A stretch of DNA of 23,304 nucleotides from a virus, in IMG/VR virus record IMGVR_UViG_3300002161_000383, positions 478-23,781 of that record; one strand, 5' to 3'. Each line of letters starts with the position of its first letter. Positions within the stretch are counted from its first letter, which is position 1. Positions 2,554 through 22,262 of the stretch are shown here, one piece after another. Under the pieces are notes generated by a model, which searched no databases, had not been told where the DNA came from, and saw only the letters and a list, made by a program, of their open reading frames with translations. A program made the position numbers and the translations under genes.

Positions 2554-4221
2554 ATGAACGGCATCGAATCTGTCATCCAAGCTGGTCAGCCTCCCCGGGC
2601 GGGTTCCGCCAATGTGCCGAAGCCCCTGCAAGACTTGATGGGGTTGGTCAATTACCTGATGTCCCAAAAGCAGGGGGGCGGTTCGCCAACGCCTTCTGTG
2701 GCCGAGGGGATAGCAGCGGCAGCGGCGCAGAACATGGCCCCTGATATGGGGGCAGCAGATGAAGGTATGTCGGAGCCTGATCTTCAGGATGTCCGTGACA
2801 CCGCCCTGCCCGCGATGCGGCAAGAGGAGATCATGGATCAGAACGCCATGCGGCAGGCGACAGAGCAGATCCAACAGCAAAACCGCCCTCAAGGTATCAC
2901 CAGCTTGGAGCCGGATATCGTCCCCCTGCGTGCTGGCGGGATTTTGGGTTACGACGATGACGAACTCGGGTTTGCTCCTGGCGGTCTGACGCCGGAGTTT
3001 GGTGGGTTTGATGTAGGTGCCAGTGAAGATACAGAACCCCGTGTTGAAGCATACGGCCCTGGGGGGAAGAAGGGCATGTTCACCGCTGCCGAGCTTCGGC
3101 AAATGGGTTATCCAGAGGAAGAGATTAAGAGGCGTTTTGCTTCTCAAGCTCCAGCAGCGCCTTCGGCACCTGCTGCGGCCCCGGCTCCGGCAGCGCCCAT
3201 GAAGATTACTCGGGTGCCCAACGCACCGGGTGCGGGAAAGCTCACCGCTCCCGCGATGCCCGCTGCTGAGCCGCCGGATGTAAACCCTTACGCAAAATAC
3301 GTTGATGAGGCGTTGAAGAGGCAGTTTGACCAACAGGCCCCCACGCAAACAGGGATCAACGCCGACATGGATGCGGCGCTCAGGGCTGCTGGTATTACCG
3401 GTCCCGCAGGGCAGAAGCTGGAGTCGGGTATCAAACAGCTTCAGGAGATGTACAACAAGCAGGCGATGACGCATGAGGAGGAGAAGAAGGGTCGTGCTAT
3501 GCGCGGGCTGCAGGAGTTCTTGCTTGCTGGTGCCCGTGGGGGTAAGGCTTGGCAGAACTTGGCAAACGCTGGGCGCGGTGGCCTCGCCTATGAAGATCGT
3601 ATGAAGGCCCAAGACGCGGCGTTCAACAAGCTGCGAAATGAACAGCAGGCGATCATCATCAAGATGGAGTCCACTGTAGAGGAAGCCCGCCGCGCCGAGG
3701 CTATGAACCGGTTCGACCTCTATCAGAAGAAGATGGACGAGTACCAGCGCCTGCGTAAAGCGTTCGACAACAACCAGATGCTGTTGGCAGGGCAAGCGTT
3801 CCAAGTTGCTGAACAAGCAGCTACGCGTCGGGAAGCTACCACTGCTCGGAGAGAAATCGCCAACCAGCAGGCTCAGATGCGTGCGGCCCTTGCGGCGAAC
3901 AAAGGTATCGGTGGGATCAAGCCTCCGTCGATGCGTGATGAGTTGGCCCTACGGCAGGATGTCAACTCCAAGTTCTTCACGGGGGCGGTCACCCCTGAGA
4001 TGCGTGCTTACTTGAACCGCAGTGAAGACGGCAAGCGCGTGCTGAACGATATTGCCAACGGGCGCATCAAGTACGATCCTAGAACTGGCTGGGGCGCAGC
4101 AGAATCGGCTATTAACCGCGCTGCAGAGATGTACAAGCGCGACATCCTTGGTTCCACTGGGCGTGATTCTGGGATAACCTCCGTAGAGCAGGCAATGCGT
4201 GAGCTTGGAGGAGCCCAGTGA
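2554..4221 (+). CDS. Putative internal virion protein, Ala/Pro-rich and helical
   Basis: 555 aa from ATG 2554. The N-terminal third is rich in Gln/Met/Ala and contains a GILGYDDDELGFAPGG block at about residues 128-144. An Ala-Pro linker follows at about 196-216. Residues about 289-451 are strongly helical and charged, with EEEKKGRAMRGLQEFLLAGA and many Arg/Gln/Glu residues, consistent with coiled coil. The C-terminal part carries RVLNDIANGRIKYDP. No signal peptide or catalytic motif is apparent. The TGA overlaps the GTG of the giant protein gene (GTGA), implying translational coupling. In phages of this layout such proteins sit just before very large ejection-type proteins, so an internal-core role is a reasonable inference but not shown here. 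Confidence 0.85.
   Translation: MNGIESVIQAGQPPRAGSANVPKPLQDLMGLVNYLMSQKQGGGSPTPSVAEGIAAAAAQNMAPDMGAADEGMSEPDLQDVRDTALPAMRQEEIMDQNAMRQATEQIQQQNRPQGITSLEPDIVPLRAGGILGYDDDELGFAPGGLTPEFGGFDVGASEDTEPRVEAYGPGGKKGMFTAAELRQMGYPEEEIKRRFASQAPAAPSAPAAAPAPAAPMKITRVPNAPGAGKLTAPAMPAAEPPDVNPYAKYVDEALKRQFDQQAPTQTGINADMDAALRAAGITGPAGQKLESGIKQLQEMYNKQAMTHEEEKKGRAMRGLQEFLLAGARGGKAWQNLANAGRGGLAYEDRMKAQDAAFNKLRNEQQAIIIKMESTVEEARRAEAMNRFDLYQKKMDEYQRLRKAFDNNQMLLAGQAFQVAEQAATRREATTARREIANQQAQMRAALAANKGIGGIKPPSMRDELALRQDVNSKFFTGAVTPEMRAYLNRSEDGKRVLNDIANGRIKYDPRTGWGAAESAINRAAEMYKRDILGSTGRDSGITSVEQAMRELGGAQ
4207..4213 (+). promoter_or_regulatory. Strong Shine-Dalgarno GGAGGAG for the GTG start at 4218
   Basis: GGAGGAG inside the last codons of the 555-aa gene, four bases before GTG 4218. 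It supports a GTG start that overlaps the upstream TGA. Confidence 0.7.
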
Positions 4222-7200
4222 AAGTAGTCCAGATACCCAACTATGGGCCTGTATCGTTTCCCGACTCCACACCGGATGACGTAGTTCAGGCTCAGGCACA
4301 GCGGCTTGCCGCTCTTGCAGAACAAAAGTATGGGTATCGTCCGGACTACCGGGAACTGGGACTGGGGCAGCTTATCAAGGGCGGCTTTGGCCGCGCTGTG
4401 TCTGGCCTGGGTAGTACCGTCACAGATCTGCTCCCCGCACTTGCCGGATCAATCGTAGGTAACGAAGCCTACGCCAGAGAACAGCTTGCGGAAGCTCAGG
4501 CCAAGCAACAAGAAGCCGAACTCAAGTACCCCACTGCGTTCAAGTCGTTTAGAGATATTCGCGGTGCGGGTGATCTGCCTGGGTACATAGCGGAGTCTCT
4601 TGGCGAACTGACTCCAGACATGCTCGCCATGCTTACAGGTGCAGGTGCATCTGGGGTGGTTGGTAAGCGTGTAGCGGTTGGTGGGTTAGAACGTCTTGCT
4701 GCGGAAAAAGCTGCACAGACCGCCGCCACACGCGGGATGTCTGAAGACGCGGCGAAGATCTACGCCGAGAGACTCGCGGCACGCGCTGCTGATCGTTATG
4801 GTGCAGAGGTTGCGGCTAGGGGGGCCTCACGCGGAACCAACATCGGTCTCGGCACCGCGTCGTTGGGGTTGAATGCCCCAAGCACATTTCAGGGCATCTT
4901 TGAGGAAACGGGTAACCTTGCTCCGGGTGTCGCAATTACTTTCGGTGCTGCGCAAGCTGCGTTGGATTCGCTCATCCCTGCGCGTTTGTTGGGGCAGTTC
5001 TCCCCTGCCGCCCGTGCCAAGGTCGCCAATGAACTCATTCAGCAGTCCACGATTGTTCCTCAGTCGTTGAAGGTAAACATCGCCAAGGAATTGGCGAAGA
5101 CTGGATTGGGCGAAGCCGCGACGGAAGGTGCGCAAGAACTTCTTGGTATCTTGGCCGAGCAGACTGCGGGTGCCACAGGAGAAGTATTCAGCCAGAAGAA
5201 CATCGACCGTATCCTCAACGCCAGCATCAAGGGGGCGATTGGTGGCACTGCGTTTGGCGCACCGGGTGCGGTTGCACAAGCTCAGCGGCAGAAGTCTGAG
5301 GCTCAGCGAATCTTGGACGAGCGGGCTGCGGCGGAACAACCCCCCACGCCTGAAACCCCCGTTGCTCCTCCGGCACCCCCTGCCATTGAGCCGCCCGTCA
5401 CTCCTGAAGTTCCGGTTACCCCTGAACCCCCCGCTAAACCCCCCGTTGCGCCACCTGTTGCGCCCGTTACCCCCGAAGCTGCGGTTACTCCTGAACCCCC
5501 TGCAACTGAAGCGCCACCCCCCGGTGCGCCTGAAATCCCCGCGCTCGACGCATGGCCTACCCGTCTGTTGGAGACCACACTCCAACACCAACAGGCGAAG
5601 CCTCCTGAGCAACAGAAGCAGGATCTGATTCAGGCGGTCCAAGCCGAGCTTGATAAACGATACGCAAAAGAATTCTCCGAGGCAGCGGTCGATGCTTTTG
5701 GCACACCAGAAGGACAACAAGATGCTGCTGGACAACCTACCCCTCCCGTTGTTGGAGAGGGCGTTTCAGTACCTGTGCAACCCGTTGGAGAAGCAACCCC
5801 CGCAGGAGTTGTCGCACCTGAACAACCTTCAGTGGTACGCCCTGCAGAACCTCCTCCAAGCCCTGCTATGGGAGAGGGAGTTGCACCCCCTGCAGTAGAA
5901 GCCGCCGCGCCGCCACCCCCTGTCACACCTCCTCCCCCACCGCCTGTTGCGCCCCCTGTTGCGCCGCCTGTCGCTCCCGCTGGCCCGGTAACCCAGGAAT
6001 CCCTCCTTGAGGACCTGCGTCGGATCAACACGCGCAAGGGTGAGTTGATGACCGCCGATGGGCGGGAACCGTTCCGGCCACGACAAGGTAAGGCACCTTC
6101 ACCTGCGCGTGCAGAGTACGAAACGATTGAAGCCGAGCTTGAACAGAAGCTCAAGCAGTGGAAAGAAACTACTGGGTACGACTTCGACCCCTCGCTGCTG
6201 ACTGCCCCTGCCCCTTCTGCGCCTAAATTTACACCCCAACAAATGTTGGAGCGTGCAGAGGAAGCACAGCGCAAGGCCGATGAAGCTGCTGCACCTCCTG
6301 CTGAACCCGCGCCGCCTATAGAAAAAGCCGCCCCACCTGCGGAAAGCGATAAAAAATCTGCGCCAGCTATAAAAAAACCCGCGCCGCAGACTGAAAAGAA
6401 GGAAGCCAAGCCTGCACCGGAAGACGCAGATCTGACGCCGGATGAGCGCAAGGCTCAGGAGAATGCACGCAAGACTTGGGCTGAACTGGACCGCAAGGGG
6501 TATCAACCTACCTCCGGAGAGAAGCTCCCGCCTCGGGATCGCAAAACCATCCTTGGTGTTGTAGCTACAACCCGTAAGCTCAACGAAGCTGCTTCTGCTG
6601 CCCGGGTATATTTCTCCAAGTCATCGAACCTGATCGATGTCCTGTACGACATCGCGTTCGATGTGGTGAACCCAACCTCAAAGTACCGGCGTGCTGAAGG
6701 TGAAGGTTCGGTTGAGAAGGCTCGGTTCCAAGGTACGGGCGGCAAGGTTGCACAGCAAGCGCAGAAGTGGGTGCAGGAGAAGCTGTCTCCAGACGCCAAG
6801 GCGCTGTACAACAAGTTTGTAGCGGAGCATCAGCGCTCCCTCAGAAATACCGAAGTTGGTATGGCTCGGCACGATGCCGAACAGGAACAAACCCGGGACT
6901 ACGCGGAAGCTGCGGCAAAAGACACCATCGAAGCAGCACGAGAGATCGCTGCGTATGCCAAACCCAAGAAAGTGGCCCCGCCTGAAGTCTGGAGAGATCT
7001 TGGCTGGACACCGAAGAGTCTGGAAGAAGCTGGGCAGTTTGCAGTACCCCTGCACCCTGTGGTGCGCCATGCGCTGTACAACGGAGACCTGAAGCAAGCC
7101 CTGCGTCTACTTGCCGCTGAATCTGAAGGCGTCAGCACGGACCTTGCCAAGCTGTATCTGAGCATCCCGATGAACACCACCGTGCAGGCGGTGGACAACT

Positions 7201-10200
7201 TGACCGATGCCACAGGTAAACGTGTAGCGGGGCTATACGACCCGCGCACAAACTCGATCTCGTTGGACTCCGTGTTCGGTATGAACAACCATGTGTTGTT
7301 CCATGAACTGGGGCATGCAATGACCTCACACGTCACTGCTAACCCAATGAACCCCTACACAAAACAACTTACCGTGTTGTTCAACGATGTGAAGGGTAGC
7401 CTCGACACCGCGTACGGCGCAACAAGCCTAGATGAATTTGTTGCGGAGACCTGGGCCAACGAAGAGTTCAAGGCGAAGCTGAACTCCATCAACCCCAAGG
7501 GTGCCTCAATCACGGCATGGGAGCGGTTCGTCAACATCATCCGTAACATGTTCCGCAGCTTCATGGGTAAGCCCTCGGTATCTATCGAGACTGCGTATGA
7601 CGTGGCCGACCGTGCGATCAAGTCGATCTTGTCTGCAGCCCCTGAGTACCGCGAAGCGGACTTGTTGTTTGCAGCGACGGTGAACCCGAAGTCGCCTATC
7701 GTCTCCCGGGCTATCGACTCGATGTTCGACTACACCGCGCAGGTTGCCGGTGAGGATGCAGCCAACGCCGCCAGTCGGTTCTTTGCTACCGCTGGGGACA
7801 CTGCTCGGCGGATTGGTTTCTCGGTGATGCCTCTTGAGGTGTTCGTAGACGTAGCCAAGAAGTACCTACCTCAAGCACCGCGCATCAATGAGTTGGTGCG
7901 TGAACGCGCCGGGGATGAGAACGCTCGGAACCAGAAGATTGAGGGTGTGGTTCGCAAGGCTGAAGAGTGGGCTCGTCGTTCGGGTCCAACCGCAACAGAA
8001 CGGTTTGATACCGTGGTCTACGACAGCACCACGCTCAAGATCGACCCCACTCGGCCCCGCAAGTTCTACGAAGACAAGTACGCACTTGCCTCGGCAGTGG
8101 ACATGCAGAACGCTCTCGATACTTGGGACCGTCTGAACAAGTTGCTGGACTCCACACCCGGGGCACGCAACCTGTACATCAACATGCGTGATGCTTACGC
8201 AGAGTTGTACAACGAACTCCTTGGTGCAATCGACTCTCGTGTGGATTCATCTATAGATGACCCCGCTGCCCGTGTACGGTTGAAGGATGAACTGCATGCC
8301 AAGCTAGCGTCCAAGGGGGAAATCGACCCGTACTTCCCACTGACCCGTAACGGTAACTATTGGCTGTCGTACAACGCGAAGGATGCCAAGGGGCAGACTG
8401 AGTTTTACGTGGAAGCGTTTGAATCGCCTCGGGAGCGCGACCGTGCTGTGGCTGCAGTGAAAGCAGCGGGTGCCATAGATGTGCAGAAGTTCTCCAATGT
8501 ACGAGAGCTTTCCTACAAGAACGCCCCACCTGCATCGTTTGTACGTGGGATTCTTGAGACGATGGAGAAGAGCCGCCCGAAGGGTTCGGTGGAACAGCAA
8601 CGCTTTGACGATGCTATGGAGTCCATCCTGCGGATGTACCTGACCACGCTGCCGGAAACCGCGATTGCTCAGTCATTCCAGCGTCGTAAGGAGACCGAAG
8701 GCTTCAAGAAAGACTCTATCCGTGCGCTGCGTGAGAAGACATTCTCGATGTCTCGGCAGTTGTCGAACATGAAGTACGCAGCCCGCATGTATGAAGTGCA
8801 GCAGGACATGCGTGAAGATGTCATCAAGATGGGTAAGGGCGGTGCGGAAGACAACCGCCTCGCCAAAGAATATCTCGATGAGATGGAGCGCCGGATCACG
8901 TTCGCCATCAGTCCCACGGTCAGTCAGACGGCACAACTCATCAACACGGTCGGCTTCAACTACTTGCTCGGCTTCAACGTCTCTTCGGCTTTGGTGAACC
9001 TGACGCAGGTTCCGCTCATTGTCATGCCGATGTTGGGTGGCAAGTACGGCTACGGAGATGCTGGTAAAGCAATCACCCGTGCGTACAAGACGTTCATGAG
9101 CAGTGGGTTCGGCAGAGAGGTAGAAATCCTTGGGGCTAAGGGCGAGAAAGACAACCGCCGCGCCATGCCTTCTTTGGACAACTACGACTTCAGCGACCCT
9201 AACCTACCCAAGGAAGTCAAGCGTTACGCTACCCTCGTCCGAGAAGCCGACAAGATGGGGCAGTTCAATCGCTCCATGATGTACGACACCCTAGAGGTTG
9301 ATGATCGTAAGAGTGCCCTGACTCGGGTAAACGCGGCCAGTGGGTTCGTCTTCCACCATGCCGAGCGCCTGAATCGGGAAGTCTCCATGATGGCTGCGTA
9401 TGACTTGGAGTTGCAGCGCCTCAACGGTAAAGATGCGACCGCAGAAGAGCGTGCGCTATCGGACGCGGACAAGGAAACACGTGCCGCCCATCAAGCGATC
9501 TACTTGGCAGAAATGACCAACGGCGGCTCCTCCGCAGCTACCGCACCGCCCATCGCGCAGAATGCCGTGGGTAAGGTCTTGTTCATGTTCAAGAAGTACG
9601 GCGTCTTGATGAACTACCTGTTGTTCAAGACTGCCAAGGAAGCCCTGCGGGGGGAGACTCCTGAAGTCCGTCGCGCTGCGTTCAAGCAACTCGCGGGCAT
9701 CATGGCTACGTCTGGGTTGTTTGCTGGTCTGCAGGGGATGCCGTTGTTCGGTGTGGTCGCCATGCTGTACAACATGTTCAAGGAAGATGATGACGAAGAC
9801 TTCGGCGCTGTGGTGCGTGGGTTCACGGGCGAGTCCATGTACAAAGGACTGGTAAACGAGGTAACTGGTCTCAGCATTGCCGAGCGGGTTGGCCTGAGCA
9901 ATCTGATCTTCCGCACCAGCCCGGTGTCGTCCGGCTCTGAAACGCTCGGTGAATGGGCTGCACAAACTTTCGGGGGTCCCGCCTACGGTATCGCTAGTCG
10001 CCTGCAACGTGGTTTACAGATGATCAACGACGGGGAGTACCAGCGCGGCATGGAGGCTATGGTGCCTGTGTTTGCGGCTAACCCCATGAAGGCGGTACGG
10101 TTTGCGACAGAAGGTGCGACCACCCTTCGCGGCGACCCCATCGTCGGAGACATTGGGCCTTGGAACGTGGCAGCGCAGATCTTTGGTTTTGCCCCTGCAG

Positions 10201-10511
10201 AGTACAACAAGCAGCTTGAGATCAACTCGATGCTGAAGGGTATCGACAAGGCGGTGACTACCAACCGAACCAAGTACCTGCGGGAGATGTATACCGCAAG
10301 TCGGATGGGGGATATTGACGGTGCGTTGGAGGCACGCGAGAAGCTGCAGGAGCTTTACATCAAACACCCGGGGCTCGGTGACATGGAGGCAACCATCAAG
10401 CGGTCGCTGGCCCAGCACGAGCGGACCACCCAGACGATGTACCACGGCGTTGTGCTGAGTAAGTCCCTACGCGATGAACTGCTGCAGACCGCAGCCGAGC
10501 AAGAGGACTAA
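4218..10511 (+). CDS. Giant internal-virion-like protein with HELGH metalloprotease motif
   Basis: 2097 aa from GTG 4218. The N-terminus (IPNYGPVSFPDSTPDD) matches a leader style common in large phage virion proteins. Residues about 40-340 are Ala/Gly-rich and helical. Pro/Ala-rich linkers occupy about 375-448, 532-595 and 690-738. A zinc-protease motif HELGH is at residues 1029-1033, with a downstream DEFVAE (1072-1077) supplying a plausible third Glu ligand as in gluzincins. The remainder is long helical sequence with hydrophobic segments near 1580-1610 and 1826-1853. This mosaic resembles the 'large polyvalent protein' class of phage giants, thought to be packaged and ejected with DNA. The protease could process virion proteins or act at the cell envelope; both are inference. 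It ends at TAA 10509-10511, next to the opposing-strand terminator. Confidence 0.88.
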   Translation: MKVVQIPNYGPVSFPDSTPDDVVQAQAQRLAALAEQKYGYRPDYRELGLGQLIKGGFGRAVSGLGSTVTDLLPALAGSIVGNEAYAREQLAEAQAKQQEAELKYPTAFKSFRDIRGAGDLPGYIAESLGELTPDMLAMLTGAGASGVVGKRVAVGGLERLAAEKAAQTAATRGMSEDAAKIYAERLAARAADRYGAEVAARGASRGTNIGLGTASLGLNAPSTFQGIFEETGNLAPGVAITFGAAQAALDSLIPARLLGQFSPAARAKVANELIQQSTIVPQSLKVNIAKELAKTGLGEAATEGAQELLGILAEQTAGATGEVFSQKNIDRILNASIKGAIGGTAFGAPGAVAQAQRQKSEAQRILDERAAAEQPPTPETPVAPPAPPAIEPPVTPEVPVTPEPPAKPPVAPPVAPVTPEAAVTPEPPATEAPPPGAPEIPALDAWPTRLLETTLQHQQAKPPEQQKQDLIQAVQAELDKRYAKEFSEAAVDAFGTPEGQQDAAGQPTPPVVGEGVSVPVQPVGEATPAGVVAPEQPSVVRPAEPPPSPAMGEGVAPPAVEAAAPPPPVTPPPPPPVAPPVAPPVAPAGPVTQESLLEDLRRINTRKGELMTADGREPFRPRQGKAPSPARAEYETIEAELEQKLKQWKETTGYDFDPSLLTAPAPSAPKFTPQQMLERAEEAQRKADEAAAPPAEPAPPIEKAAPPAESDKKSAPAIKKPAPQTEKKEAKPAPEDADLTPDERKAQENARKTWAELDRKGYQPTSGEKLPPRDRKTILGVVATTRKLNEAASAARVYFSKSSNLIDVLYDIAFDVVNPTSKYRRAEGEGSVEKARFQGTGGKVAQQAQKWVQEKLSPDAKALYNKFVAEHQRSLRNTEVGMARHDAEQEQTRDYAEAAAKDTIEAAREIAAYAKPKKVAPPEVWRDLGWTPKSLEEAGQFAVPLHPVVRHALYNGDLKQALRLLAAESEGVSTDLAKLYLSIPMNTTVQAVDNLTDATGKRVAGLYDPRTNSISLDSVFGMNNHVLFHELGHAMTSHVTANPMNPYTKQLTVLFNDVKGSLDTAYGATSLDEFVAETWANEEFKAKLNSINPKGASITAWERFVNIIRNMFRSFMGKPSVSIETAYDVADRAIKSILSAAPEYREADLLFAATVNPKSPIVSRAIDSMFDYTAQVAGEDAANAASRFFATAGDTARRIGFSVMPLEVFVDVAKKYLPQAPRINELVRERAGDENARNQKIEGVVRKAEEWARRSGPTATERFDTVVYDSTTLKIDPTRPRKFYEDKYALASAVDMQNALDTWDRLNKLLDSTPGARNLYINMRDAYAELYNELLGAIDSRVDSSIDDPAARVRLKDELHAKLASKGEIDPYFPLTRNGNYWLSYNAKDAKGQTEFYVEAFESPRERDRAVAAVKAAGAIDVQKFSNVRELSYKNAPPASFVRGILETMEKSRPKGSVEQQRFDDAMESILRMYLTTLPETAIAQSFQRRKETEGFKKDSIRALREKTFSMSRQLSNMKYAARMYEVQQDMREDVIKMGKGGAEDNRLAKEYLDEMERRITFAISPTVSQTAQLINTVGFNYLLGFNVSSALVNLTQVPLIVMPMLGGKYGYGDAGKAITRAYKTFMSSGFGREVEILGAKGEKDNRRAMPSLDNYDFSDPNLPKEVKRYATLVREADKMGQFNRSMMYDTLEVDDRKSALTRVNAASGFVFHHAERLNREVSMMAAYDLELQRLNGKDATAEERALSDADKETRAAHQAIYLAEMTNGGSSAATAPPIAQNAVGKVLFMFKKYGVLMNYLLFKTAKEALRGETPEVRRAAFKQLAGIMATSGLFAGLQGMPLFGVVAMLYNMFKEDDDEDFGAVVRGFTGESMYKGLVNEVTGLSIAERVGLSNLIFRTSPVSSGSETLGEWAAQTFGGPAYGIASRLQRGLQMINDGEYQRGMEAMVPVFAANPMKAVRFATEGATTLRGDPIVGDIGPWNVAAQIFGFAPAEYNKQLEINSMLKGIDKAVTTNRTKYLREMYTASRMGDIDGALEAREKLQELYIKHPGLGDMEATIKRSLAQHERTTQTMYHGVVLSKSLRDELLQTAAEQED

Positions 10512-18025: not shown

Positions 18026-18213
18026 CGCGGCATTTCCTTGTTTTGCATGATCGCAAGGGTAGCCTGAAGCACTCGTACCTCTACACCCATCCGCAGGGCG
18101 GTCTCTTCCGCAGCGGGGAGATCATCCTCCAGGCATTCGTTATACAGTTGTTTAGCCATGCGCTCGATGTTCATCAGAGGCATAGCGTAGTCCACGATCT
18201 CAGCAGTCGCCAT
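18022..18213 (-). CDS. Small hypothetical protein between polymerase and nuclease
   Basis: 63 aa, probably all helical: IVDYAMPLMNIERMAKQLYN, a short acidic turn (LEDDLPAAEE), then a second helix ending MQNKEMPR. Start ATG 18213 lies inside the last codons of the polymerase gene with GGAG upstream. Its stop overlaps the nuclease start (ATGA). The tight coupling on both sides supports it as real. No family is recognised; a small helical accessory or partner protein is possible. Confidence 0.7.
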   Translation of the reverse strand: MATAEIVDYAMPLMNIERMAKQLYNECLEDDLPAAEETALRMGVEVRVLQATLAIMQNKEMPR

Positions 18214-20917
18214 AACTTTTTCCTACTCCGCTTTCACAGTTAACAGGCAGCCCCCCTGCCCACTTCGGTACCCACCGCATACATTCTTCAACATACGCCC
18301 GAGCTTCATTTACTTCTTCGTCTCTGCAGATGCACGCGATAGCGTCATGCACTGTCAACACAACTTTGTACTTCATGGAGATACGCAGCATCTGTTCCCC
18401 GATGATGCAGCGGGCAATGGCTTGGCAGACGTTCTCGATGACCTTCCCGCCGTAAATGCGAGTGCGCCCTTTACGGGTCTTGTAGGTGAACTCGATCCCC
18501 TTCTCACCCTCGTGCGCCTTCAGGTCATCGTACCGCAGCATCAGCTTGCTAGGCAACAGGATTGCTTTCTCCACGGGCACTATTGACAGCACACCGGAGC
18601 GCCCTAGCATAGCCGGCTCGTCCCGCAGCATCGCAACCAGCATGAGCTGCGCCTGCCGCCACAAACCGGTGATCGCCGGGTTTGACTTCCGGTATACCTC
18701 CACGATTCGGCGGGCTTCGTCCAGATCCACGTTCGCCTCTGAGCCCCTTAACTGGGCGTGAAACTTCACCGCGCCCATACCGTACCCGCAGTTATGAACA
18801 ATAAGCGGTCCTACATCTGTCGCAATCATGAATCTGTTGTTCGGCCCTGCGTAAGCGATGTCGTAGGTCTGCAATTTCTGCTTGCATTTCTTTGACCGTT
18901 CGCTTGTTACGTGCGTTTTCACTTCGGGTTGCGAATCGAAGGTTGTCCGGTTCATACCCTTTGTTGTTATCAACCCTGTCAAGGTCACGCTTGGGGTCGT
19001 CCCAATTGGGGAGAGTAATGAGGTACTGTAAAAAAGCGGCGCGATCAGTACGCCAGGGTTCATGAACAGTGATACCCCGTCCACCATAGTGCGCGTATGT
19101 TTTGCAAGTCTTTGTGTGGCATCTTGAAATAACACTCGCAATTCGGTTGAGCAGTCTTTGCCTGTGCCCCATGTCTGGAACAATTGCTTCATAGCCCCAA
19201 TACTTTTTGCGAGTTGCGTCTGCCGCACCTTTAGCGCACGTATTGCACCTTGTTGTACGCCCCGACTTGAAGTTCTGTCTGTCAACTTGGCCTTGCCATC
19301 CACAATCACACCGGACCACGGGATGCCACCCTGCAGATCTACCCATGGACTTGATGTGCTGCTGCCAACCAACGACAGTGAGCGTGCCTTGTCGAAAGCC
19401 GATTGGGAAAGGGTAGGGTTTGTAACCACCTCGTACCACTCCCGCCACCCATGTTCCGTCAGAATTTCGTGTTCCGGCGTAGCGTCTACCCCCCATGCCC
19501 TGAGCGTCTCGCGCTCTCCCTTCGGGATCACCCCCTGGTGTGTTACCCATGATTCACCATCCCATACCAAATCCGTAGCTTGAACTTCTACAATACGCTT
19601 CCAACCTGAGTTTGTCAATACCCTAGTGTCGGCGGCAAAACAACCAAGGATCGTTGTCTTACCTACAAACCGTTCAGGGTCTGTGATCTCGGTGGTTGGC
19701 TTACCGTAAATTTGTGATGCCATCAGCTTGTACGGGTCGTGCTTAAACTGTTTCTTGGGTACACTTGCAAGAATCTCCTCGTTGTTCTTTCTGAACACCT
19801 CCAGCAGATCGTCTTGCCCCGCAAGCCACGCCAATACCCGTGCCTCAATCTGAGAAGAGTCGGAGTCAATGATGCTGTACCCTTCGGGCGCGAGGATAGC
19901 GCTCTTCAACTTCCCCGCGTTCTCTCCTCGGCTCGGCAGGTTCTGCAGGTTGATCTTGTCGTCCCCGCCGAACCGCCCCGTGTGCGCTGCGTAATACTTG
20001 ATCGGCACCGGTAGTGCGCCCCGCTCGGCTATGTCAATGAACCGTTGGGTGCGGGTCTCTTCCAGGGTGGACTTCATTCCAAGACGTGCCGATACCAACC
20101 CTTGCACGCGCCAGTCCGGATGGTGGAGCAATGCGATGAAGTCTTCGTCGTTCTTGGCAAACGCATGCGTTTCTTTACCCGTGGTCAGACTCGTCTTCCT
20201 CGGCGGCGTTACACCAAGATTGGCCAACACCTCTGCGAACTTTGGGTTGCTCATCAGATCCGATGCTTCCACACCACTGTCGGCCAGCAACTTGGACTTC
20301 TGTTCCTGAATACTCTGTAGGTGTTCTTGCAAAAGATCCTTGTCCAGCCGCAGCGTAGGCTCGATAAACATACGTAGCGTTGTGTCTATGAGCTTCAGTT
20401 CCTTCTTGGGGAACAGGGGCAAGAACTTCTTGAACAGCAGGTACGTAAGCTCCACGTCGGTGACGCAGTAGTCCCCGTACCGAGCCAGCCGCTCCTTGGA
20501 GAAGTCCTCGCGGCGCATACCCGCTACGGTCAGCACCTCCACGCCCTTGGTGCCGAGCCCCTCGCGCTGCGCTAACGCTGCCAGGGAGTTACTGACTTCC
20601 ACACCGTGCAGAGCCCGCCCCATGCACAGAGTATCAAGCCATAGGTTAGGCAGAATGCCAAACCGCCAAGCCAGAATGGCCCCATCAAACATAGCGTTAT
20701 GAGCCAACGCCATAGAGTTTTCCCAGTCAAACTGGAGTAACCAATCTTTGATCTGCTGTTCAGTCCCACTTGCCCACTCCACTACGCCGTTGTTGACCTT
20801 GAGCCCCACGCCGATAACCTCAAACCGTTTATCGCGTATGTACTCTTCAGTTGTAAGTTTCGTGAGGCTGAACTCCCTGTCGTAGTACGTTTCAAAGTCA
20901 AGAGTTATCAGGTCCAT
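18200..20917 (-). CDS. Family A DNA polymerase with 3'-5' exonuclease, interrupted by an intein
   Basis: The 905-aa precursor would give a 621-aa mature enzyme after splicing (425-aa N-extein, 196-aa C-extein). Exonuclease residues are DFE (D7, E9), AHNAMFD (D78) and YCVTD (D154). Polymerase motif A is DSDSSQIEAR (D353). Motif B is R416...K420-TTILG, then the intein, then CGYGMG. Motif C is TVHDA (catalytic D574 in the mature protein). The position equivalent to Phe762 of E. coli Pol I is Leu424. A longer reading frame opens at 20998, but ATG 20917 is preferred: it has GGAG upstream and begins at the conserved exonuclease strand. The start overlaps the glycosyltransferase gene by 20 bases. 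There is no 5'-3' exonuclease domain, as in many phage enzymes. Confidence 0.94.
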   Translation of the reverse strand: MDLITLDFETYYDREFSLTKLTTEEYIRDKRFEVIGVGLKVNNGVVEWASGTEQQIKDWLLQFDWENSMALAHNAMFDGAILAWRFGILPNLWLDTLCMGRALHGVEVSNSLAALAQREGLGTKGVEVLTVAGMRREDFSKERLARYGDYCVTDVELTYLLFKKFLPLFPKKELKLIDTTLRMFIEPTLRLDKDLLQEHLQSIQEQKSKLLADSGVEASDLMSNPKFAEVLANLGVTPPRKTSLTTGKETHAFAKNDEDFIALLHHPDWRVQGLVSARLGMKSTLEETRTQRFIDIAERGALPVPIKYYAAHTGRFGGDDKINLQNLPSRGENAGKLKSAILAPEGYSIIDSDSSQIEARVLAWLAGQDDLLEVFRKNNEEILASVPKKQFKHDPYKLMASQIYGKPTTEITDPERFVGKTTILGCFAADTRVLTNSGWKRIVEVQATDLVWDGESWVTHQGVIPKGERETLRAWGVDATPEHEILTEHGWREWYEVVTNPTLSQSAFDKARSLSLVGSSTSSPWVDLQGGIPWSGVIVDGKAKLTDRTSSRGVQQGAIRALKVRQTQLAKSIGAMKQLFQTWGTGKDCSTELRVLFQDATQRLAKHTRTMVDGVSLFMNPGVLIAPLFYSTSLLSPIGTTPSVTLTGLITTKGMNRTTFDSQPEVKTHVTSERSKKCKQKLQTYDIAYAGPNNRFMIATDVGPLIVHNCGYGMGAVKFHAQLRGSEANVDLDEARRIVEVYRKSNPAITGLWRQAQLMLVAMLRDEPAMLGRSGVLSIVPVEKAILLPSKLMLRYDDLKAHEGEKGIEFTYKTRKGRTRIYGGKVIENVCQAIARCIIGEQMLRISMKYKVVLTVHDAIACICRDEEVNEARAYVEECMRWVPKWAGGLPVNCESGVGKSYGDC
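18791..19642 (-). mobile_element. Intein in DNA polymerase motif B (284 aa)
   Basis: Starts at Cys1 (CFAADTRVLT, codon 19642-19640) and ends at His-Asn (PLIVHN, last codon 18793-18791) with +1 Cys in the C-extein. Block A includes CFAADTRVLT. Block B is VDATPEHEIL with T55 and H58. A block F-like segment, TYDIAYAGPNNRF, is at about 259-271, and block G is GPLIVHN. The extein joins as TTILG-CGYGMG, restoring motif B. Residues about 74-248 lack any LAGLIDADG or HNH signature in this frame, so the intein has no in-frame endonuclease. A complete HNH gene overlaps this region in the -1 frame. Hand counts give about 50% G+C for 18841-19140 against about 61% in 240 bases of flanking polymerase code (18421-18540, 19861-19980), consistent with a different origin. 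Confidence 0.93.
18792..19550 (-). CDS. HNH endonuclease nested out of frame inside the polymerase intein
   Basis: Up to 252 aa, read in the -1 frame relative to the intein. From residue 43 the layout is that of phage HNH endonucleases: a QGTLTVVGW strand, then a zinc knuckle (C81, C83, C102, C105), a linker with RLLNRIASVISRCH, then YGGRGITV, W166 and the catalytic finger LDRVDNNKGYEPDNLRFAT...ENARNKR (about 190-217). A basic coiled-coil tail of about 35 residues follows. The start is uncertain. ATG 19550 follows an in-frame TGA at 19556-19554 by one codon, but residues 1-40 look non-conserved; ATG 19496 or GTG 19448/19439 are alternatives nearer the domain edge. The stop TAA (18794-18792) is made from the intein's CAT-AAC His-Asn codons. 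The likely role is a homing endonuclease for the intein; cutting of the empty allele is inferred. Confidence 0.85.
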   Translation of the reverse strand: MGNTPGGDPEGRARDAQGMGGRRYAGTRNSDGTWVAGVVRGGYKPYPFPIGFRQGTLTVVGWQQHIKSMGRSAGWHPVVRCDCGWQGQVDRQNFKSGRTTRCNTCAKGAADATRKKYWGYEAIVPDMGHRQRLLNRIASVISRCHTKTCKTYAHYGGRGITVHEPWRTDRAAFLQYLITLPNWDDPKRDLDRVDNNKGYEPDNLRFATRSENARNKRTVKEMQAEIADLRHRLRRAEQQIHDCDRCRTAYCS

Positions 20918-22262
20918 GTTGTTCGTTCTCCGAGTTCTCAGGTTGTTTCTTTTCCCCGAAGCCAGCACGCACGCGCATGTTCGGGTAGTCGATGCCAAAC
21001 TTGTCAGCGTAACCAGCTAGGGTACGTGCAGTGCCGAGCCCGTAAGCCCCAAGGTTTGCGCCATCCACCAACAAACTTTTCAGCCGCTTGTTTGACTGCT
21101 CATCGTATGTCCACCAGCGCTTAGCCCGCTGTTTGTCATCCCCCTCGTTCCAATGCGGCGCACGGACGGAGCACTTCGTATCGTTGAACAGGTGGAAGAC
21201 AGGTTGCCCCGCCACGAAAAACAGATCCCACCCGTGGGTAAAAGCTCGGGCAGAGAAGTTGTGCTCCTCACCGTAGAAGTACAGAGCCGGATCAATCAAC
21301 ACCTGCCGGAACAAGTCTGCAGGGGCGAACACGCAGCCCGCAGATATACGGCTACCCTCTACGTCCTCGGTATGCCCGTACACAACACCTGCGTACCCAA
21401 TTGCCACGGCGCTCATCGACCCATCTTGGGCGGGTTTCTGCCCCACAGTAGCTGAGCCCCAGCGATCCAGCTTCACCTTGTTGTTCTCATAGGTGAATCC
21501 ATACGGCATCATGGACAGGTAAGGCTTGCTTGACTTGGACTTCAAGCGTTCTATCGTTCGTATAAACCATGTATCCCATCCGGGGTCGAACCGTGAATGT
21601 GAATCGACCTGTAGTACATAGTCCTCGTCATACAAAAGCGTGAATCCCACCGCTCGTGCCCAACAGGGGCCCCGGCTGAACTTGTAGTCCACAAACAGAT
21701 ACTCGATCTGCGCAGGCGCAGCCAACGCCAGCTTATCTTCTCGGGCAGGGTACATGGTCTGATCAACTACGACAAACCTCAGTCGTTCAGGGTGCTCGGC
21801 CTTAGCTACCGCATCTGCAACTGTCGCCCACAGTTCCTGATCATCACGGTACGAAGCGATGTTCACGAAGATGGTAGGTAGTGAGGCAGCTTTTTCGGTT
21901 GCACTTGTATATACGTAAACACCAACGTCGTCCTCCACGTACACCCCTTGCGGCGTAGGGAGCGCAACGACCAACTCGCTGTTTCGCTTTACACGTAGTA
22001 CCACTGTGTTGCAGCACTCAGATAAACGGTGCATCAGGAACAACGCATCGGACACGCTGAACTGCTCCAGCACGCGGCCAACCAACCCAACGTCGTACTT
22101 GCTCTGAGGCTTCCACGCAGCTAGATCGTCCGCCATAGTCCACTCGGCATCGTGTGCAACGCAGTGGCGCAATGGTGACCAATCAGGGTCGGCGTCCTTG
22201 ATTTCGAGCACGGACTTCGGCTTGCGTGCTACAAGAAGTTTTCTTATGGTCTCAAGCGGCAC
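20898..22262 (-). CDS. GT-A glycosyltransferase resembling GlcNAc family PF11397, with N-terminal extra domain
   Basis: 454 aa from GTG 22262 with GGAAGAG upstream. From about residue 128: TIFVNIASYRDDQELW, RGPCWARAVGF, then VLQVDSHSRFDPGWD with a D220-S-H222 metal motif, KPYLSMMPYGF, SAGCVFAPADLF, YFYGEEHNFSARAFTHGWDL and PVFHLFN. This series is that of the Skp1-hydroxyproline GlcNAc-transferase-like family. The first ~110 residues (KSVLEIKDADPDW, then YDVGLVGRVLEQF) recall a degenerate Rossmann methyltransferase-like domain without a glycine loop. The C-terminal 30 residues are polar. The target is unknown: modified DNA bases, a virion protein or a host surface sugar are all possible. Its place directly before the polymerase in a replication operon is unusual. 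It overlaps both neighbours. Confidence 0.85.
   Translation of the reverse strand: MPLETIRKLLVARKPKSVLEIKDADPDWSPLRHCVAHDAEWTMADDLAAWKPQSKYDVGLVGRVLEQFSVSDALFLMHRLSECCNTVVLRVKRNSELVVALPTPQGVYVEDDVGVYVYTSATEKAASLPTIFVNIASYRDDQELWATVADAVAKAEHPERLRFVVVDQTMYPAREDKLALAAPAQIEYLFVDYKFSRGPCWARAVGFTLLYDEDYVLQVDSHSRFDPGWDTWFIRTIERLKSKSSKPYLSMMPYGFTYENNKVKLDRWGSATVGQKPAQDGSMSAVAIGYAGVVYGHTEDVEGSRISAGCVFAPADLFRQVLIDPALYFYGEEHNFSARAFTHGWDLFFVAGQPVFHLFNDTKCSVRAPHWNEGDDKQRAKRWWTYDEQSNKRLKSLLVDGANLGAYGLGTARTLAGYADKFGIDYPNMRVRAGFGEKKQPENSENEQHGPDNS
20928..20931 (-). promoter_or_regulatory. Shine-Dalgarno GGAG supporting the polymerase start at 20917
   Basis: GGAG within GGAGAACGAACAAC, ten bases before ATG 20917 and inside the end of the glycosyltransferase gene. 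A similar GGAGAAC leader precedes other genes of this arm (starts at 14624 and 15304). Confidence 0.6.

Follow-up and report, generated by a model that had tools for sequence, protein, structure and literature searches.

A putative mobile intein with a nested, out-of-frame HNH homing-endonuclease gene in a phage family A DNA polymerase

The stretch of viral DNA analysed here (the window: 23,304 nucleotides, positions 478 to 23,781 of IMG/VR record IMGVR_UViG_3300002161_000383) carries a long open reading frame (ORF) for a family A DNA polymerase that is interrupted by an intein, and a second ORF, for an HNH endonuclease, lies nested out of frame within the same intein DNA (Table 1). The long frame was assigned from its matches to Pfam DNA_pol_A (E 1.5e-25) and to the PHROGs DNA polymerase family phrog_17 (E 9.7e-84). 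The intein corresponds to residues 453-736 of the polymerase ORF, with an insertion point within the motif ILG/(C)GYGMG (the stroke marks the point of insertion), which we take to be polymerase motif B.

An earlier reading of this locus, made from the letters of the DNA alone (the sequence-only reading), had described an intein frame open for 284 codons with splicing motifs at both ends, and Cys1, TxxH, His-Asn and the +1 Cys are all indeed present. By profile comparison the intein matches the Mtu RecA intein (E 6.8e-5). Conservation of the catalytic residues was followed through 82 inteins (related loci are denoted by L and a number) that were chosen for carrying the HNH gene in the phase found in the window, i.e. 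the -1 frame relative to the polymerase, hereafter phase +2, so that agreement in phase within this set is by construction; identical inteins, inteins with N-half scores under 60 and loci L184-L186 were left out of it, and L004, which has no HNH core, was included. The residues of a class 1 intein are preserved throughout, with His-Asn in 82/82, Cys (80/82) or Ser (2/82) at +1, and Cys at intein position 1 in 81/82, the exception being L143, which a contig end truncates within the N half; T55 and H58 of block B are invariant in the intein alignment (A3).

The product of the nested ORF is identified as an HNH endonuclease by PHROGs (phrog_374, E 2.5e-31), as had been proposed for the -1 frame. 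The endonuclease had been placed at about 18900-19424; the slot was right, and the ORF proves to be longer (19550-18792), its 5' end falling inside the N-terminal splicing domain. Nineteen residues are invariant in an alignment of 68 HNH sequences. Eleven of these 68, the window's own protein not among them, match Pfam CapR, which PMC10448857 describes as a zinc-finger domain in phage homing endonucleases. No HNH match to the window's protein was obtained in Pfam or NCBIfam, and Pfam reported neither an intein nor an HNH family for the window proteins or the alignment members; the intein and HNH assignments rest on PHROGs, profiles, motifs and structure.

Table 1. Features of the intein-interrupted polymerase gene and of the HNH gene nested in it (window coordinates)
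Feature	Position	Strand	Remarks
Family A DNA polymerase ORF, intein-interrupted	18200..20998	(-)	932 codons; probable start M28 at 20917
Intein, stop-free	18791..19642	(-)	284 codons; Cys1 at 19642, His-Asn 18796-18791, then +1 Cys
N-terminal Hint splicing half	19367..19642	(-)	Intein residues 1-92; Cys1, TxxH block B
Intein-frame linker, stop-free	18896..19366	(-)	Intein residues 93-249; predicted disordered, near-neutral
C-terminal Hint splicing half	18791..18895	(-)	Intein residues 250-284; His-Asn at end
+1 extein codon TGC (Cys)	18788..18790	(-)	GCC (Ala) in empty allele
Nested HNH endonuclease ORF	18792..19550	(-)	252 aa; -1 (+2) frame relative to polymerase
Candidate HNH starts	19446..19550	(-)	ATG 19550 (+92 from Cys1), GTG 19448 (+194); both from conserved Trp codons
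CxC...CxxC zinc-ribbon-like motif	19236..19310	(-)	C81, C83, C102, C105; invariant 68/68
HNH core motif	18915..18980	(-)	HNH residues 191-212; invariant D191 R192, N203, F206, N212
HNH stop TAA	18792..18794	(-)	Formed from the intein's terminal His-Asn codons CAT AAC

The nesting is old and well conserved, and no accident of this contig. It occurs in three loci that were located via the HNH protein (L001-L003, 67-80% identity), at 34-41% in MR14, Vibrio 97.13, EBPR siphovirus 2, Sodalis SO-1 and Salmonella SE2, and also in two E. coli Dhillonvirus records. Profile searches, one of which was confined to the best 80 of 245 loci, gave 86 HNH-linked inteins, all distinct, whose two halves share a frame; left out of this set were L020, L094 and L183 (free-standing HNH, no intein seen), L150 and L154 (N half missing at a contig end) and L092 (SS3e; halves in different frames). 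The HNH gene lies in phase +2 in 84 of the 86 and in phase +1 in the other two, in none is it in frame with the intein, and the intein frame runs without a stop, as one continuous frame, in the window and in all 86 relatives. The proposal of the sequence-only reading that this is a distinct architecture of mobile intein, with its endonuclease out of frame, is thus supported by the comparative data, in which the arrangement is widespread. A further survey, made through the intein N half, covered the best 80 of 550 loci, all bearing one short motif and hence close relatives only; after removal of 11 duplicates its 69 distinct loci comprised 63 in phase +2 with an HNH core, two in phase +1 (L261, L262), one without a core (L188, on the same contig as L004) and three cut by contig ends, and an in-frame HNH was found in none of the 65 HNH-bearing inteins.

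Three other identities for the element were considered and set aside. A large intein with an internal, in-frame endonuclease domain is rejected on the phase of the HNH gene in the window and on the counts of zero among 86 and among 65; a fractured gene with a split intein is rejected because the halves are not on separate ORFs; and an assembly indel is unlikely, the same phase recurring in other contigs, in many relatives and in GenBank phage records.

That both frames are open beyond chance, for which only a rough calculation had been offered, was borne out by resampling: when the HNH core of the window was resampled synonymously the intein frame remained open in 0/2000 cases, and the reverse test likewise gave 0/2000. 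Over the cores of about 180 codons of the phase +2 set minus L004 (81 cores), the intein frame contains no stop in 81/81, where synonymous HNH resampling expects about 5.9 per sequence (median chance of zero stops 0.001, highest 0.022); the HNH core is open in 79/81, and the third frame contains a mean of 13.7 stops (range 5-24).

Constraint on the two frames was estimated from 19 disjoint, equal-length and ungapped pairs of sequences (one of which holds the broken L155), each difference being classed by its effect in both frames. Upstream of the overlap the intein omega is 0.27, and in the N-terminal overlap it is 0.24, with an HNH omega of 0.93; over the core the HNH omega is 0.24 (0.20-0.27) and that of the intein 0.87 (0.76-0.97), with differences accumulating at the second base of intein codons, which corresponds to the third base of HNH codons. 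Over the C-terminal overlap constraint acts on both frames (intein omega 0.15, HNH omega 0.34), as judged from few differences. The per-frame comparison that had been suggested alongside the sequence-only reading thus finds the splicing halves constrained in the polymerase frame and the HNH core in the other. Since constraint switches frame in this way, the linker would be mainly a stop-free spacer and no second folded protein, and dual coding in the full sense appears to be confined mainly to the C-terminal splicing block. Dual coding as originally claimed, then, holds in that both frames are kept open, and does not hold over the core in that the intein frame there is little constrained and predicted to be disordered.

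The AlphaFold models of the two frames are complementary, in line with the switch of constraint. For the intein frame the predicted local distance difference test score (pLDDT) is 93-98 over residues 1-90 and 85-98 in the block 250-284, and falls below 50 over residues 94-249, which are predicted to be disordered; the folded part of the model matches solved inteins (Foldseek, best E 3.6e-4) and has the Hint fold. For the HNH frame the model is disordered over residues 1-23 and mostly confident from about residue 41. The best structural match to its residues 119-217 is the PacI HNH, on which they superpose (VIA) with Z 5.3 and a root-mean-square deviation of 2.9 over 79 aligned residues, a modest score that is suggestive only of an HNH fold; most VIA matches aligned the N-terminal part (43-109) to Tudor/CarD-like barrels. 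Foldseek returned no match to the HNH model at E <= 0.001, and comparison of the HNH sequence with solved structures gave a single weak match, to a short chain of 45 residues (E 0.067).

Intein-less alleles of the polymerase, the search for which had also been suggested, were found in L007-L009, from which the filled gene differs by an insert of exactly 852 nt. Identity between the joined flanks is 97.3% over 300 nt (in the wider regions it is about 92% to one side of the site and 97% to the other), and the codon after the insert is TGC (Cys) in the filled gene vs GCC (Ala) in the empty one. More widely, the +1 residue is Cys or Ser in 82/82 intein-bearing genes, and among 78 intein-less loci it is Ala in 63, Cys in 14 and Ser in one (48, 11 and one of 60 distinct sites). 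In 16 of 19 pairs the two inteins resemble each other more closely than do the exteins beside them, as in L130/L137, where the inteins are 98.2% identical vs 70.1% and 58.9% for the exteins. The insert accordingly looks mobile and capable of splicing, and the empty site, together with the incongruence of host and insert, suggests that the HNH protein is a homing endonuclease.

Decay of the endonuclease is also seen: L141 and L155 have a disrupted HNH core and L004 lacks it through deletion, and all three retain an open intein frame. HNH decay beside an open intein is what a homing cycle predicts. The sequence-only reading had held that close relatives with one frame broken and the other intact would remove the dual-coding claim; such losses of the HNH frame exist in these three loci, and in SS3e the intein frame is broken, but the claim stands because 79/81 keep both frames open.

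An HNH gene in phase +1 was found in Allobaculum and Spirochaetaceae genomes, in APSE-1 (P46 within P45), in Caulobacter GB2A and in the Streptococcus prophage Javan104. Two HNH types are represented in this phase, an APSE type, whose inteins precede a C(EN)xxQ or CxQAxxRD-like sequence, and a Javan type, whose inteins precede CGYGG or CGYQG. The host genes in APSE-1, GB2A and Javan104 are annotated polymerases, and the flanking residues suggest that those on the scanned phase +1 contigs are polymerases too. In the scan of the APSE type (best 80 of 130) the intein frame is open in 24 of 25 inteins, the remaining one (L284) being cut by a contig end, and 55 loci lack an intein N half; in that of the Javan type (all 42, of which five duplicates and L356, without an N half, were set aside) 34 of 36 inteins are open and in two no C half was found. 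The 55 non-intein relatives of the APSE-type HNH provide a control: 54 have stops in the matching frame, vs 0/25 of the nested genes, and the sole stop-free one, L335, is a short match with a weak intein-N match. Because both alternative phases occur, nesting would have had two or more origins, or else a single origin followed by a shift of frame.

We interpret the insert as a mobile intein with a nested, out-of-frame HNH homing-endonuclease gene in the polymerase, an interpretation to which we assign a probability of roughly 0.86. In the mechanism that we propose, the polymerase frame would encode two Hint halves joined by a long, stop-free and probably unstructured linker, and post-translational splicing, to which the intact catalytic residues and the acquired +1 Cys point, would restore the polymerase. 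The linker DNA would encode, in its other frame, the HNH homing endonuclease with its zinc-ribbon-like part, which would probably arise as a free protein whose translation begins internally on the polymerase mRNA, at +92 or +194. This enzyme would cut intein-less polymerase alleles, and repair would then introduce the entire element of 852 bp, and with it the +1 Cys, steps for which the empty allele and the greater likeness of inteins than of their hosts are the evidence. The intein frame would remain open because the polymerase needs it, with the HNH gene free to decay. Separate translation of the HNH protein, splicing and cleavage are thus all events that we infer from sequence comparison.

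Some features of the candidate starts are consistent with internal initiation. NTG is present at +92 in 77/82 inteins and at +194 in 72/82, and C is rarer before TG than codon usage predicts (1 vs 12.6 expected at +92; 3 vs 23.0 at +194), which hints at selection for start codons, to which kinship and HNH residue preference could contribute. At intein offset +77 there is an excess of A, giving ATG, before Trp27 (43/81 vs 17.0 expected), and this ATG is possibly another start site.

A number of observations weigh against this interpretation. The presence of NTG codons is partly a consequence of conserved Trp codons; Shine-Dalgarno-like matches of at least 4 nt precede +92 in 40/82 inteins (background 32%) and +194 in 6/82, so that the signal at +92 is weak at best; HNH residues 1-38 look unconstrained, and 7/82 inteins carry an HNH-frame stop after +92. 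The 14 of 78 intein-less loci (within L007-L084) that already have Cys at +1 may reflect either natural variation or the scars of lost inteins, and in three of the 19 pairs the intein is not clearly more alike than its surroundings. In the 11 closest pairs (>85% identity) the core intein omega is 0.70 (0.52-0.84), and weak constraint on the intein frame of the core is possible. The HNH sequences form 64 clusters at 90% identity, 31 at 70% and one at 50%; the inteins are related, and the sequences are therefore not independent trials. Lastly, the polymerase/intein frame is broken in SS3e, an old Salmonella phage record.

Weakness of the initiation signals, and the location of the HNH gene in the -1 frame of the polymerase throughout the window's group, could also be accounted for by -1 ribosomal frameshifting, which would yield a fusion of polymerase, intein N half and HNH and no free endonuclease. 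However, there is no conserved slippery heptamer, X_XXY_YYZ sequences being present in intein codons 20-70 in just 7/82, and the HNH frame of the window has a stop right before the ATG at +92; moreover two further HNH types are nested in the opposite phase, which excludes -1 slippage as a general mechanism, and we judge this explanation very unlikely. HNH ORFs are common in group I introns, and SO-1 gp38/gp39 are annotated as a 'type I self-splicing intron', as would be expected were the insert such an intron with an HNH ORF, the polymerase frame being open only incidentally. The complete intein catalytic motifs and Hint fold, the purifying selection on the Hint halves and the absence of intein-frame stops in all 86 inteins speak against this, to the point that we find it barely credible. 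Rfam gave no match in the window (none in 18200-21000 even at E up to 5) and no intron match in 12 related loci, which yielded nothing but two small RNAs, both in L180 and downstream of its polymerase insert.

It is also conceivable that a working mini-intein carries the HNH frame as a dead relic, as the loci with an open intein and a broken (L141, L155) or deleted (L004) core might suggest; but an HNH core with an omega of 0.24, whose changes fall mostly at its own third codon position, which retains 19 invariant residues in 68 sequences and which is open in nearly all of the 81 cores, makes this highly improbable. Just as improbable, in our estimation, is that the intein has lost splicing and the polymerase tolerates the insert, as has been suggested of the ShiLan insertion in methylases, which PMC11855218 presents as having an out-of-frame HNH gene and no splicing domains. 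Cys1, TxxH, His-Asn and Cys or Ser at +1 have all been kept, whereas the intein-less allele has Ala at +1, and a retained insert of 284 residues should harm the polymerase, because the site lies in a conserved polymerase motif.

The nested intein can be compared with several known arrangements. Large inteins carry, between blocks B and F, an endonuclease domain that shares their frame. The element shares with these its Hint halves, the position of the endonuclease DNA in the same slot and an apparent mobility, but here the endonuclease is in another frame (in frame in 0/86 and 0/65) and therefore cannot belong to the intein polypeptide. In fractured genes, reportedly described by Dassa et al. 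in 2009, a free-standing endonuclease gene is said to lie between the halves of a split intein; common to both is an endonuclease that is apart from the intein polypeptide and sited at the intein break point, whereas in our case there is one continuous intein ORF, which the endonuclease gene overlaps. Group I introns can carry homing-endonuclease ORFs, and resemble the present element in having an endonuclease gene nested in a mobile element and separate from the host protein; unlike them, the intein would be removed at the protein level, so that no stop can be tolerated in the host frame along the length of the endonuclease gene. The ShiLan domain, or Pacc40 insertion, of actinobacteriophage methylases (PMC11855218) likewise has an out-of-frame HNH gene in an insertion that leaves the host frame open, with a mobile distribution, and out-of-frame HNH genes in open insertions also figure in PMC12613952; the ShiLan insertion, however, is presented in PMC11855218 as having no detected splicing domains and is thought to be retained in the protein, whereas here the HNH gene lies between complete Hint halves and overlaps them in part.

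Sodalis SO-1 (gp38/gp39) and APSE-1 (P45/P46) have the same arrangement as the window, and the nested ORF is annotated in both GenBank records; that of SO-1 is labelled a type I intron and P46 of APSE-1 is without a stated function, and neither record describes an intein with a nested endonuclease. The SO-1 sequence (L089, 2309-3067) shows an intein with complete splicing motifs, and its label of 'type I self-splicing intron' looks wrong. In the record of Salmonella phage Ent1 the intein is annotated as 'encoding splicing domains', with no HNH feature at the intein; the stretch of it compared here (L264) contains, at 1501-2397, an intein with a nested phase +2 HNH ORF that is not annotated in the stretch shown. 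The literature searched, short of the preprint most likely to overlap (Gosselin et al. 2025, 10.1101/2025.01.02.630785, 'non-canonical architecture', cited in PMC11855218 for overlapping frames), yielded no account of a splicing-competent intein with an out-of-frame endonuclease.

Other related loci depart from the common arrangement in various ways. The inteins of L170 (2388-3479) and L171 (3807-4898) are larger, at 364 aa, and have additional sequence that separates the N splicing half from the HNH. Moraxella Mcat21, among the phage records examined, has an intein-like N half without an HNH. The polymerases of Microcystis phage MJing1 (L093, 3170-3580) and Pseudomonas phage Rollin (L094, 3642-4283) are intein-less, and in both a free-standing HNH-like gene begins at the polymerase stop codon, an arrangement that is possibly a stage before or outside nesting. 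The SS3e polymerase gene (L092, 398-3498) is distributed over three ORFs by apparent indels within the intein, which may be a real split or sequencing error. In Erwinia sp. OLFS4 (L180, 5405-5590) Rfam places isrK and C4 antisense RNA downstream of the polymerase intein, which suggests a prophage. Elsewhere in the window, a 12-bp repeat occurs 22 times at positions 1-264 (LAPT repeats, in an ORF at 1-888), and an array of 15-bp repeats comes after it, at 274-509; a protein of 2097 aa is encoded at 4218-10511, its C-terminal part matching DarB-like antirestriction profiles (phrog_10089, E 2.8e-71); and a glycosyltransferase-like ORF (phrog_24687) at 20898-22262 overlaps the start of the polymerase ORF.

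Beyond this locus, we consider it likely that the inteins of phage family A polymerases have nested, out-of-frame homing-endonuclease genes as a standard architecture, one that evolved repeatedly and embraces three HNH types, each of the two alternative phases and several insertion sites, in which mobility and splicing would come from the same DNA through different proteins; inteins recorded as having splicing domains only, such as that of Salmonella Ent1, may then be active homing elements with an overlooked endonuclease. Surveys that consider the host frame only would score such inteins as endonuclease-less, and the share of mobile inteins may therefore be underestimated. The arrangement would represent a third way of combining self-splicing with homing, beside the intein with an in-frame endonuclease and the ORF-bearing intron, and offers a clear natural example of overlapping genes, where the switch of constraint from frame to frame can be followed along a single gene. 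Many sequences, empty sites and controls outside inteins are at hand, as are phages that can be cultured (Dhillonvirus, Jerseyvirus, APSE, a streptococcal prophage) and in which expression and homing are open to direct study. In three groups of related inserts, the arrangement would enable a mobile element to uncouple the splicing of its protein from the mobility of its DNA.

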